Assembly: GCA_006739055.1 (NCBI GenBank)
Contig: AP019702.1
Coordinates: 3,435,388 to 3,499,387 of the forward strand
Length of the DNA stretch: 64,000 nt
From: Allostella vacuolata
GTDB lineage: Bacteria > Pseudomonadota > Alphaproteobacteria > ATCC43930 > Allostellaceae
Direction of reading: 5' to 3'
Part shown: positions 51,294 to 58,986 of the stretch, one piece after another
Layout of the letters: each line of letters starts with the position of its first letter
Numbering within the stretch: the stretch's first letter is position 1
Notes under the pieces: model-generated
The model's database searches: none
Told to the model about the DNA's origin: nothing
What the model saw: the letters and a program-made list of their open reading frames with translations, nothing else
Translations under genes and position numbers: made by a program

Positions 51294-51656
51294 TCAGAGC
51301 GGAACGAAGCGCGGCAGGTGGCGCCCGTCGTGGAGATGGAAGGTGACCGCGACGCGCTGCCCGATCGTCAGTCCCGGCGCGCCGTGCGCCATCATGCGGA
51401 TGCCCTCGTCGAGGTCGACCAGGAGGATGGCGTACGGCACCAGCGGCCGGAAGGCGTCGGACGGGGCACGGGTGACGATGGCGGCGGCATGGACCGTGCC
51501 GGTCCCGGCCGCCCGCCGCCACTCCACCGCCTCCGACCCGCAGGCCGGGCAGAAGGCGCGCGGGAAGGTCTGCCGCGCCCCGCACGCGGTGCAGGCGCGA
51601 TAGCGCAGCTCGCCCGCGGCGCAGCCCGCCCAGTAGTGATCGGCCAGCGTGGTCAT
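51294..51656 (-). CDS. DUF35 OB-fold protein with zinc ribbon
   Basis: The 120-residue protein has a zinc ribbon with Cys22, Cys25, Cys36 and Cys39 (RACTACGARQTFPRAFCPACG) and an OB fold after residue 45, ending YAILLVDLDEGIRMMAHG and GQRVAVTFHLHDG. It overlaps the thiolase stop by one base (TGATG), so the two should form a complex. It lies 21 bases ahead of the NDP-forming acyl-CoA synthetase gene. The role is structural and substrate-channelling in known thiolase/DUF35 pairs. Confidence 0.88.
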   Translation of the reverse strand: MTTLADHYWAGCAAGELRYRACTACGARQTFPRAFCPACGSEAVEWRRAAGTGTVHAAAIVTRAPSDAFRPLVPYAILLVDLDEGIRMMAHGAPGLTIGQRVAVTFHLHDGRHLPRFVPL

Positions 51657-52780
51657 CAGTCGGCCCTCAAGACGAGGCTGACATGGGACGACATCACGCC
51701 GCCGTCGCCGTGGACGAAGGCCGTGGTGCGGCCCGGCAGCTGGCGGGCGCCGGCCTTCCCGGCCAGCTGGCGATAGGCCTCCGCGATGTGCGCCATGCCG
51801 CCGCCGACCCCGCAATGGCCGAAGGCGAGCAGCCCGCCATGGGTGTTGAGCGGCAGGGCGCCGCCCGGCCCGAAGGCGCCGTCGCGCGCCATCGCCGCCG
51901 CCCCGCCGCGCGGGGCGAAGCCGATCTCTTCCAGGAGCATGGTGAGCGTGATGGTGAAGCTGTCATAGATCGCCAGATAGTCGATGTCGTCCATGCCGGC
52001 CCAGGCCTCGTCGAGGGCCCGCTCCGCGGCCAGCGCCGCGCCGGTCTCGGTCAGGTCGGCGGCATGGGTGATGTGCTGGTGGCGGTGCGCCTGGCCCATT
52101 CCGGCGATGTGGGCCCCCTCCCCCTCGGCCGCCACCACCAGCGCCACCCCGCCGTCGGAGATCGGGCAGCAGTCGAGCAGCTTCAGGGGGGCGGCGATCG
52201 GCTTGGAGGCGAGCACGTCGGCGACCGTGATCGGCGCCGTCTGGTGGGCGCCCGGACAGGCCGCCGCGTGGCGGCGCATCAGCACCGCGAACTCCGCCAG
52301 GTCGGCCTCGGTCACGCCATGGACATGCATGTAGCGCGACGCCAGCAGGGCGTAGTAGGCGGGAATGGTGGCGCCGTAGGGCACCTCGAAGTCTGGATGG
52401 CCGACTTGGGCCAGGGTCTGGACCGACGAGTCGCGGCTCTGGCCGGTCGCCCGGTTCTCCGCCCCCACCACCAGGATCCGCCGGCACTGGCCGGCATCGA
52501 CCAGGCGGGCGGCCAGCATGGTCATCGCGCAGCCGGTGGCGCCACCCGCCTGGACGGCGTGGGCGTAGACGGGATCGATGCCGAAATGCTCGGCGAACAC
52601 GGTCGCCAGCATCAGGTGCGGATGGGTCGTGGAGTAGCCGCAGACGAGGCCGTCGATGTCGCCTCGGCCGAGCCCGGCATCCGCCAGCGCCGCCGCCGCG
52701 GCAGCCGTCATCAGGTCGATGGTCGAACGGCCTTCGTGCCGGCCGAAGCCGGTGTCGCCGGCACCGACGATGTGCGCCAC
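51656..52780 (-). CDS. Thiolase family protein lacking the nucleophilic cysteine
   Basis: The 374-residue protein has the thiolase fold (MAHIVGAGDTGFGRHEGRST, ADAGLGRGDIDGLVCGYS, LLDCCPISDGGVALVVAAEG, YDSFTITLTMLLEEIGFAPRG and the C-terminal NTHGGLLAFGHCGVGGGMAHIAEAYRQL). At the nucleophile position it reads HAVQAGGATGCAMTML, with Gly80 where active thiolases have Cys. Sterol-degradation thiolase-like aldolases such as Ltp2 also lack this Cys. A retro-aldol or structural role with the DUF35 partner is plausible. The first 34 codons are repeated downstream by a tandem duplication. Confidence 0.87.
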   Translation of the reverse strand: MAHIVGAGDTGFGRHEGRSTIDLMTAAAAAALADAGLGRGDIDGLVCGYSTTHPHLMLATVFAEHFGIDPVYAHAVQAGGATGCAMTMLAARLVDAGQCRRILVVGAENRATGQSRDSSVQTLAQVGHPDFEVPYGATIPAYYALLASRYMHVHGVTEADLAEFAVLMRRHAAACPGAHQTAPITVADVLASKPIAAPLKLLDCCPISDGGVALVVAAEGEGAHIAGMGQAHRHQHITHAADLTETGAALAAERALDEAWAGMDDIDYLAIYDSFTITLTMLLEEIGFAPRGGAAAMARDGAFGPGGALPLNTHGGLLAFGHCGVGGGMAHIAEAYRQLAGKAGARQLPGRTTAFVHGDGGVMSSHVSLVLRAD

Positions 52781-52866
52781 TTGCTGTCCTCCCCAGGCGG
52801 GCCGCAGTCTGCCCGCCGGAACGGGCCCGCGGCAAGACGGTTGGCAAGGACGGAGGTGCCGGGACG

Positions 52867-53050
52867 ATGAGCCTCAGGATCGCGACCTACAACCTGGAGA
52901 ACCTCGACGACGAGGATCCCGCCCTGCCGCTGGAGGCGCGCCTGCCGGTGCTGCGCCGGGCGCTGGCCGAGCTGGCCGCCGACATCCTCTGCCTGCAGGA
53001 GGTGAACGCCCAGGAGCCGCCCAAGCGGCCGCGGACCCTGTCGGCGCTCG
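52867..53050 (+). pseudogene. Duplicated 5' end of the endonuclease/exonuclease/phosphatase gene
   Basis: These 61 codons, beginning MSLRIATYNLENLDDEDP, are identical to the start of the gene at 53239. They stay open in the same frame across the junction because the duplicated unit is a multiple of three. A 442-residue fusion could be translated from 52867; its residues 62-124 would be antisense thiolase and promoter sequence. More likely this copy is inert, or acts as a second start. Confidence 0.7.
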
Positions 53051-53152
53051 ATCCGCCAGCGCCGCCGCCGCGGCAGCCGTCATCAGGTCGATGGTCGAAC
53101 GGCCTTCGTGCCGGCCGAAGCCGGTGTCGCCGGCACCGACGATGTGCGCCAC
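53051..53152 (-). pseudogene. Duplicated 5' end of the thiolase gene
   Basis: Codons 1-34 of the thiolase (MAHIVGAGDTGFGRHEGRST onward) are repeated here, then the frame runs into antisense of the endonuclease gene copy and stops at 52874. The fragment cannot make an enzyme. It marks the second copy of the divergent promoter. Confidence 0.75.
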
Positions 53153-53238
53153 TTGCTGTCCTCCCCAGGCGGGCCGCAGTCTGCCCGCCGGAACGGGCCC
53201 GCGGCAAGACGGTTGGCAAGGACGGAGGTGCCGGGACG

Positions 53239-54195
53239 ATGAGCCTCAGGATCGCGACCTACAACCTGGAGAACCTCGACGACGAGGATCCCGCCCTGCC
53301 GCTGGAGGCGCGCCTGCCGGTGCTGCGCCGGGCGCTGGCCGAGCTGGCCGCCGACATCCTCTGCCTGCAGGAGGTGAACGCCCAGGAGCCGCCCAAGCGG
53401 CCGCGGACCCTGTCGGCGCTCGACCGGCTGGTGGCGGGCACGCCCTATGCCGGATTCCACCGCGCGATCACCACCAGCGACGGCGGCGACTACCCGCGCG
53501 ACATCCACAACCTGGTGATCCTGAGCCGCTTCCCGATCGGCGCGGTCGACCAGGTGGCCCACCGCCTGGTGCCGCCCCTGCGCTGGCAGTGGCTGGGCGG
53601 CGCGGAACAGGCGCCGATGCGCTTCGAGCGGCCGATCCTGGCCGTCACCATCGATGTCGGCCGGCCGCTGCACCTGCTCGACCTGCATCTGCGCGCGCCG
53701 CTCGCCGTCGCCGTGCCGGGCCAGAAGTCCGGCCCGTTCGCCTGGCGCACGATCGCCGGCTGGGCCGAGGGCTATCACCTGGCGGCGATGAAGCGGTCGG
53801 CCCAGGCGCTGGAGGCCCGGCTGCTGGTCGAGGAGATCTTCGACCGCGAGCCCGAGGCCTGGATCGCCGTCGTCGGCGACATGAACGCCGAGGAGCACGA
53901 GGCGCCGCTGGCGATCCTGGGCGCCTCGGAGGAGGCGACCGGCAATGCCGATCTGGCCGGGCGCGCGCTGGTCTCCCTGGCCGGCCTGGTGCCGCCGGAA
54001 CGCCGCTTCACCGTCCGCCACGGCCGCGGCCTGATGCTCGACCACCTGCTGGTGTCCCGGCCGCTCGCCCGGCGCTGCCTGGGCGTCGACATCCTGAACA
54101 CGACGCTTGCCGACGAGCGGGATGCGTTCGCAGCCGGCTACAGCGACCCCGCCGGCTTCCACGCCCCGGTGGTGGCGCGCTTCCGGCTGGATTGA
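53239..54195 (+). CDS. Endonuclease/exonuclease/phosphatase family protein
   Basis: The 318-residue protein has the EEP motifs RIATYNLENLDDED, DILCLQEVNAQEPP with the metal-binding Glu, HNLVILSRFPI, LHLLDLHLRAPL, IAVVGDMNAEEHEAPL and the final MLDHLLVSRPL and DPAGFHAPVVARF with the His base. Members cleave nucleic acid, phospholipid or inositol phosphate esters using Mg. No signal peptide is seen. The same start is repeated 372 bases upstream by a tandem duplication, and the second copy is taken as the authentic one because only it continues into the rest of the gene without foreign sequence. Confidence 0.87.
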   Translation: MSLRIATYNLENLDDEDPALPLEARLPVLRRALAELAADILCLQEVNAQEPPKRPRTLSALDRLVAGTPYAGFHRAITTSDGGDYPRDIHNLVILSRFPIGAVDQVAHRLVPPLRWQWLGGAEQAPMRFERPILAVTIDVGRPLHLLDLHLRAPLAVAVPGQKSGPFAWRTIAGWAEGYHLAAMKRSAQALEARLLVEEIFDREPEAWIAVVGDMNAEEHEAPLAILGASEEATGNADLAGRALVSLAGLVPPERRFTVRHGRGLMLDHLLVSRPLARRCLGVDILNTTLADERDAFAAGYSDPAGFHAPVVARFRLD

Positions 54196-54214
54196 GCGGC
54201 ACCCGACGCGGAGC

Positions 54215-58117: not shown

Positions 58118-58983
58118 GGTCACGCACTCATAAACGGGTAGCGGTTTGAGGGCTGTCGTGATTCCCTCTGGCGAGGGAGAGTATGGATGAAGCCTCGCCG
58201 GTACGAGATCACGGACTTCGAGTGGTCGATCATTGAGCTGCTGTTGCCGAACAAGCCGCGCGGAGTGCCGCGCGTGGACGACCGCCGGGTGCTGAACGGC
58301 ATCTACTGGCGGCTGCGGACGGGTTCGCCGTGGGCGGACATCCCGGAGCGCTACGGGCCGGCGACGACCTGCTACAACCGCTTCGTCCGGTGGCGCAAGC
58401 TGGGGGTCTGGGATCGCATCTTCGCGGCGGTTTCGGCGGCCTACGACGGGGACCTCCAGATGATCGACAGCTCTTCGATCCGCGTCCACCAGCACGGTGC
58501 GAACGGTAAAAAGGGGGGCCGGAAGCCACCTGCGGGGACGTTCCTGACCCCCGATGCATGGGGCGCTCGCGAGGTGGGCTGACGACGAAGATCCATGCCT
58601 TGGTCGATGCCGAGGGGCGGCCCGTCGCCGTGAAGCTGACGCCGGGGCAGGCGCATGACGGCCGCAGTGCGGCCGACATGCTGGACGGAATGAAAGAGGG
58701 GCAGATCCTGCTGGCCGACCGCGCCTACGATTCCAATGCCCTGCGCCAGGCGCTGGCCGATCGAGGCGCCTGGGCCTGCGTCAAGCCCAAGCGCAACCGC
58801 AAGGCCACTGTCGCCTTCAGTCCCTTCCTCTACCGCTACCGCAACCTCGTCGAGCGCTTCTTCAGCAAGCTCAAGCACTTCCGCGCCGTAGCCACCCGCT
58901 TCGAGAAGCACCCCGAAAACTACCTCGCCCTCGTCAAGCTCGCAGCCACCAGAATTTGGCTACGTCATTATGAGTCGGTGACC
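58118..58983 (+). mobile_element. IS5-family insertion sequence (IS427-like), 866 bp
   Basis: The left end GGTCACGCACTCATAA and the reverse complement of the right end GGTCACCGACTCATAA are terminal inverted repeats of 16 bases with two mismatches. A TA dinucleotide flanks each side (58116-58117 and 58984-58985), the usual target repeat of this group. The element carries a transposase in two frames. It lies between a truncated DUF599 gene and ilvD, 63 bases before the ilvD start. Confidence 0.92.
58187..58582 (+). CDS. IS5-family transposase, upstream frame
   Basis: The 131-residue frame begins MKPRRYEITDFEWSIIELLL and has the N-terminal DNA-binding part, then ADIPERYGPATTCYNRFVRW and MIDSSSIRVHQHGANGKK. 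The Asp in MIDSSS is the first residue of the DDE triad. The frame leaves the family pattern after a run of five A and six G (58508-58518); what follows is out of register. A -1 shift at that run joins it to the second frame. It is translated with a normal start; the second half requires frameshifting. Confidence 0.88.
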   Translation: MKPRRYEITDFEWSIIELLLPNKPRGVPRVDDRRVLNGIYWRLRTGSPWADIPERYGPATTCYNRFVRWRKLGVWDRIFAAVSAAYDGDLQMIDSSSIRVHQHGANGKKGGRKPPAGTFLTPDAWGAREVG

Positions 58984-58986
58984 TAG
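58558..58986 (+). CDS. IS5-family transposase, downstream frame
   Basis: The 142-residue frame holds MGRSRGGLTTKIHALVDAEG, ILLADRAYDSNALRQ with the second DDE Asp, and RYRNLVERFFSKLKHFRAVATR with the final Glu. It overlaps the first frame by 25 bases in the -1 register. Its stop TAG at 58984-58986 is made by the flanking target TA plus a host G, so the stop lies outside the element. It could also be read alone from the ATG at 58558, though fusion by frameshift is the normal route. Confidence 0.87.
   Translation: MGRSRGGLTTKIHALVDAEGRPVAVKLTPGQAHDGRSAADMLDGMKEGQILLADRAYDSNALRQALADRGAWACVKPKRNRKATVAFSPFLYRYRNLVERFFSKLKHFRAVATRFEKHPENYLALVKLAATRIWLRHYESVT

Follow-up and report, generated by a model that had tools for sequence, protein, structure and literature searches.

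We found an exact head-to-tail duplication of 372 bp across two divergent gene starts in the genome of Stella vacuolata ATCC 43931, a star-shaped soil bacterium. The duplication is a real feature of the sequence and of an ordinary kind, and it is likely that it arose by a single recent non-homologous (short-junction) tandem duplication in the lineage of this strain, probably neutral and reversible. The genome (AP019702) is one contig of 5,834,761 bp, and the window is the whole stretch of it that we analysed, 64,000 nucleotides at positions 3435388–3499387.

In particular, window positions 52679–53050 were identical, base for base, to 53051–53422, giving two copies of the unit. The identity reached one base further to the right (52679–53051 equals 53051–53423) and no base further to the left, so that a single A is common to both breakpoints. 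Tandem Repeats Finder reported the same repeat at 52679–53423, with a period of 372, 2.0 copies, 100% matches and 0 indels. Thus, both the perfect 372-bp repeat across the divergent intergenic region and the one base of microhomology, claimed in an earlier sequence-only reading, were confirmed. The full-length unit occurred twice and nowhere else in the genome; the other six genome matches to it covered 33–82 bases at 75–88% identity. The unit comprises 102 bp (34 codons) of a thiolase-like gene on the minus strand, the entire 86-bp intergenic region between the divergent genes, and 184 bp (61 codons and one base) of an endonuclease-type gene on the plus strand. The features of the locus are the following (window positions):

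51656–52780, minus strand: thiolase-like gene, 374 aa, intact, with a GTG start in copy 1 (PF22691, PF00108)
52679–53050, no strand: copy 1 of the unit, with the working thiolase-like 5' end and an orphan endonuclease 5' fragment; identical to copy 2
52804–52836, minus strand: promoter-like pair of the thiolase in copy 1, CTTGCC, 19 nt and a CAGACT-like block on the thiolase strand; conserved in same-genus genomes
52867–54195, plus strand: 442-residue frame from the copy 1 start, with a 124-residue extension (open reading frame list)
52874–53152, minus strand: 92-residue frame from the copied thiolase start, a dead end inside the endonuclease fragment (open reading frame list)
53050–53051, no strand: novel junction, the first base of endonuclease codon 62 joined to antisense thiolase codon 34, with a 1-base (A) microhomology
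53051–53422, no strand: copy 2 of the unit, with the working endonuclease 5' end and an orphan thiolase-like 5' fragment; identical to copy 1
53176–53208, minus strand: second copy of the promoter-like pair, generated by the unit duplication, which would fire towards the junction if active
53239–54195, plus strand: endonuclease/exonuclease/phosphatase-family gene, 318 aa, intact, with an ATG start in copy 2 (PF03372)

Neither flanking gene was damaged. The thiolase-like gene retains the start in copy 1 and the endonuclease-type gene the start in copy 2, each with a complete 5' end and all of the intergenic sequence. The first codons of both genes (34 and 61 codons) are indeed duplicated, as had been proposed, with the correction that each gene keeps an intact 5' end of its own. 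The 92-residue frame opened by the copied thiolase start had no Pfam match.

The locus was compared with three other genomes of the genus: Stella sp. ATCC 35155 (AP019701.1), S. humosa ATCC 43930, and a third genome in many contigs (G003). A contig scan for relatives, from which the own genome and very near genomes may be omitted, returned only ATCC 35155 and no second S. vacuolata genome. The duplication was missing from all three. ATCC 35155 (loci L029/L010) and G003 (L012) carried the one-copy form, with the thiolase and endonuclease genes adjoining, and S. humosa (L108) had only part of the unit, its thiolase side, once, with homology ending at window position 52816 and restarting at 54212. 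Over its length, the thiolase-like gene was 88% identical in ATCC 35155 and 91% identical in S. humosa. When aligned to ATCC 35155, the real S. vacuolata locus gave two pieces with a 369-base overlap, while a script-made one-copy locus gave a single piece of 4,659 columns, and a single piece of 2,885 columns against G003. The novel junction had no counterpart in ATCC 35155, G003 or S. humosa. In S. humosa, the place of the endonuclease gene (L108, 2806–4549) holds a LysR-type regulator (312 aa, minus strand; PF00126, PF03466) and a methyltransferase-domain protein (238 aa, plus strand; PF13489).

Single or partial single copies in 3 out of 3 same-genus relatives show that the duplication is derived in the S. 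vacuolata ATCC 43931 lineage. The two copies differ at 0 of 372 positions (95% upper bound 0.8%), whereas the unit is only 77% identical to ATCC 35155, which argues for a recent event. It would be very young unless gene conversion kept the copies alike, a process that could maintain exact identity in an older event as well. With these relatives and identical copies, the earlier claim of a very recent duplication held up.

We used exact repeats in the rest of the genome as background. The census covered 59 stretches of 20 kb (1,180,000 bases, about 20% of the S. vacuolata genome, the stretch overlapping the window being omitted) and detects exact runs of at least 25 bases, so that duplications with a few differences are not counted as tandem. 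Among exact direct repeats spaced 31–5000 bases apart, the longest had 130 bases, and exact head-to-tail copies appeared only with units of 15–18 bases. The exact run of 373 bases at our locus is far beyond chance, since it compares with a maximum of 130 bases in 1.18 Mb sampled, and the census supports a single event. No exact tandem unit longer than 30 bases was found in 20 stretches each of ATCC 35155 (400,000 bases) and S. humosa (387,001 bases). Systematic stutter of the assembler was rejected as a candidate after sister events were sought in the sampled stretches and none was found among exact runs of at least 25 bases. The sampled loci also included several diverged tandem arrays, among them one with a 138-bp period and about 10 units in S. 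vacuolata (L057, about 54 to 1385), another with units of about 1.47 kb in the same genome (L044, from about 13027), and a paralogous array with units of about 2 kb and exact runs of up to 242 bases in ATCC 35155 (L072, from about 11600).

Short-junction (non-homologous) tandem duplications are a class of bacterial chromosome rearrangement, and the 372 bp of S. vacuolata are small by comparison with their usual sizes. As in other members of the class, the copies are adjacent and direct, the endpoints share almost no homology (1 bp), the duplicated state is derived with respect to one-copy relatives, and there is no insertion sequence or long repeat at the junction. Unlike them, this duplication covers only 372 bp and two gene starts, and it stands in the published consensus of a strain rather than in a selected mutant. 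Homologous recombination mediated by an insertion sequence or another repeat was rejected; the endpoints share one base only and no full-length unit exists elsewhere. A split IS4/5-type transposase lies at window positions 58187–58986 on the plus strand, in two overlapping frames (131 and 142 aa; PF13340, PF01609), some 4 kb past the end of the endonuclease gene and away from the duplication junction.

The event would have joined two points 372 bp apart that had one base in common. One candidate route is end joining of a broken sister copy, with two Ku genes and LigD encoded in the genome; a replication template switch is another, and the sequence cannot tell it from end joining. Ku was found in all four genomes of the genus (one match in G003 and two in each of the others) and in 1 out of 14 control genomes. 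In S. vacuolata, two ku genes of opposite orientation flank ligD, whose product has phosphoesterase, ligase and primase-polymerase domains (L142, contig positions 1207500–1216500). The presence of Ku and LigD genes indicates that end joining is available to this bacterium, as a duplication made by non-homologous end joining would demand. We infer the joining mechanism, the neutrality, and an easy return to one copy by recombination or slippage. Our search of the literature on LigD, tandem duplication and non-homologous end joining in bacteria found nothing.

Two experimental systems offer a comparison. In the Salmonella work (PMC3411829), the confirmed duplications had junction homology of at least 11 bp, and 8 candidates, all with at least 7 bp, were tested after being chosen for long homology. 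Because of that choice, the study has no bearing on 1-bp junctions and neither supports nor excludes such events. The S. vacuolata duplication resembles the Salmonella ones reported there in being spontaneous, chromosomal and known from its junction, and differs in its 1-bp junction homology against at least 11 bp. In E. coli, plasmid-borne 101-bp tandem repeats underwent frequent deletion that did not depend on RecA (PMC8378479). Those repeats are likewise perfect, adjacent and direct, and collapse by template switching would be expected in both cases, although the assay used a plasmid-borne construct and here the locus is natural and chromosomal and the unit longer. Since the 101-bp repeats of that study were often deleted, the 372-bp repeat is expected to be unstable as well.

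That expectation also weighs against a neutral reading, under which a 372-bp repeat should be lost easily, so that finding it in the consensus implies that the event was recent, that the population passed through a bottleneck or that selection played some part. It further bears on the possibility that the duplication is real but polymorphic, with only part of the culture carrying it or with a copy number that varies (1, 2, 3 and so on) and was written as two. In an assembly graph, a mixture of one-copy and two-copy cells would look no different from a fixed duplication, judging from the method of the Unicycler assembler (PMC5481147). Tandem repeats are deletion-prone, as the E. coli study (PMC8378479) indicates, and in unselected cultures between 10^-2 and 10^-5 of the cells carry any particular region in duplicate (PMC3411829). 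However, Unicycler weighs depth and long reads, according to its description, and a minority form would normally lose at 330x. We consider a polymorphic state unlikely.

The source of the assembly also speaks to the suggestion of an assembly error, in which one chromosomal copy would have been written twice. For S. vacuolata, Unicycler 0.4.8 was run on Illumina data (2 x 300) together with 203,511 Nanopore reads averaging 4,874 bases (330x in total), and the result was polished with Pilon; of the sister assemblies, one was also made with Unicycler and that of S. humosa with Canu (PMC6687932). The Unicycler paper (PMC5481147) describes a short-read graph with k-mers of up to 127 and bridge sequences taken from the graph, with the long-read consensus used directly only where no graph path exists. 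From this method, a 372-bp tandem copy should form a loop in the graph, which needs short reads across the new junction, and the number of turns should be chosen from long reads and depth. An artefact would fit the exact identity, the length of the repeat beyond the maximum k-mer (127) and the setting of copy number by bridging (PMC5481147). Against it, the edge that joins back would require junction k-mers among the Illumina reads; the sampled 1.18 Mb of the genome held no further exact tandem unit longer than 18 bp (exact copies only), and the 787 kb of the two sister assemblies, from Unicycler and Canu, none longer than 30 bp. Given that the published pipeline leads us to expect the junction in the short-read graph, a pure artefact is very unlikely, and both the hybrid pipeline and the lack of a similar event in 1.18 Mb sampled speak against the assembly error that the earlier reading had left as an alternative. 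The junction is probably real in cells, and the copy number and the frequency in the culture are less certain. The duplication is mentioned nowhere in the S. vacuolata genome paper (PMC6687932), and in no title or abstract opening among the papers listed on Stella vacuolata.

We then considered the possible effects of a real, recent duplication on the two genes. The promoter-like pair of the thiolase had the same blocks and spacing, with a diverged spacer, in 4 out of 4 same-genus genomes (L029, L108 and L012 among the loci), a count that holds by construction, the pair having been derived from those four genomes. Three loci of another genus lacked it, and the motif CTTGCC-N19-CANANT had 0 occurrences in 2.36 million strand-bases sampled from the S. 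vacuolata genome outside the window. A sigma-70 consensus scan of 52500–53600 detected 0 promoters and 0 terminators. If the pair is the thiolase promoter, we predict two promoters in series, with the upstream one reading through the orphan fragments into the thiolase.

The endonuclease-type gene belongs to its family, as had been suggested: the 318-aa form scored 49.8 bits against PF03372, with a cut-off of 24.5. Matches of its relatives begin at residue 1 of this form (ATCC 35155, G003 and G043) or at residue 3 (G055), and for that reason we take the 318-residue form as the native protein. A relative was present in 5 out of 61 genomes searched, S. vacuolata included. The S. humosa genome had none at E <= 0.001, so the endonuclease is dispensable in the genus.

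The 124-residue extension of the 442-residue frame consists of residues 1–61 a second time and then of antisense thiolase and intergenic sequence. On its own, it matched PF03372 as a fragment (residues 6–63, 19.5 bits), under the cut-off of 24.5, and in the 442-residue form the Pfam endonuclease domain was placed at 130–410, in the native part. The longer form scored 65.1 bits against 49.8 for the native one; the rise is due to the repeated N-terminus, itself a weak PF03372 fragment. When 152,400 breakpoint pairs were tried on the one-copy locus, the upstream start remained open and in frame in 50,395 (33%), and among pairs with a length divisible by three in 99%. The frame is thus open from the upstream start over 442 residues, as the earlier reading had proposed, and we rejected its openness as a sign of function, since 33% of breakpoint pairs do likewise.

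An adaptive or functional role, in which two thiolase promoters instead of one drive higher expression of the thiolase and the genes behind it, or the 442-residue variant has a new function, is scarcely credible. It could draw on the complete conserved pair in both copies, that of copy 2 reading towards the thiolase, on a long frame that is open and preceded by sequence identical to that upstream of the native start, and on an extension in which residues 1–61 of the enzyme recur with their PF03372 fragment and which brings the score from 49.8 to 65.1 bits. But the rest of the extension is antisense and intergenic, the fragment alone falls under the family cut-off, the openness of the frame is expected by chance, the enzyme is dispensable in the genus (no relative in S. 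humosa at E <= 0.001), and identical copies yield no readable signal of selection. Also highly improbable is a reading in which the duplication acts as a live switch that can revert, or as a newly arisen adaptive change, and spread through the strain by means of serial thiolase promoters and a 442-residue endonuclease with a doubled N-terminus.

Under the preferred reading of a recent, neutral short-junction duplication, little effect would be expected, at most a second thiolase promoter in series and some of the longer endonuclease variant. The duplication points to no new system, and seems to be a chance mutation of recent date, not a novel biological device. If real, it would offer a clean natural example of a tandem duplication that formed very recently with hardly any homology and has so far neither decayed nor collapsed. 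The host encodes Ku and LigD, its long and short reads are public (DRA008500), and the locus could then serve to measure how fast a small natural duplication is lost. Finally, annotators may choose the wrong start for the endonuclease, giving 442 instead of 318 residues.
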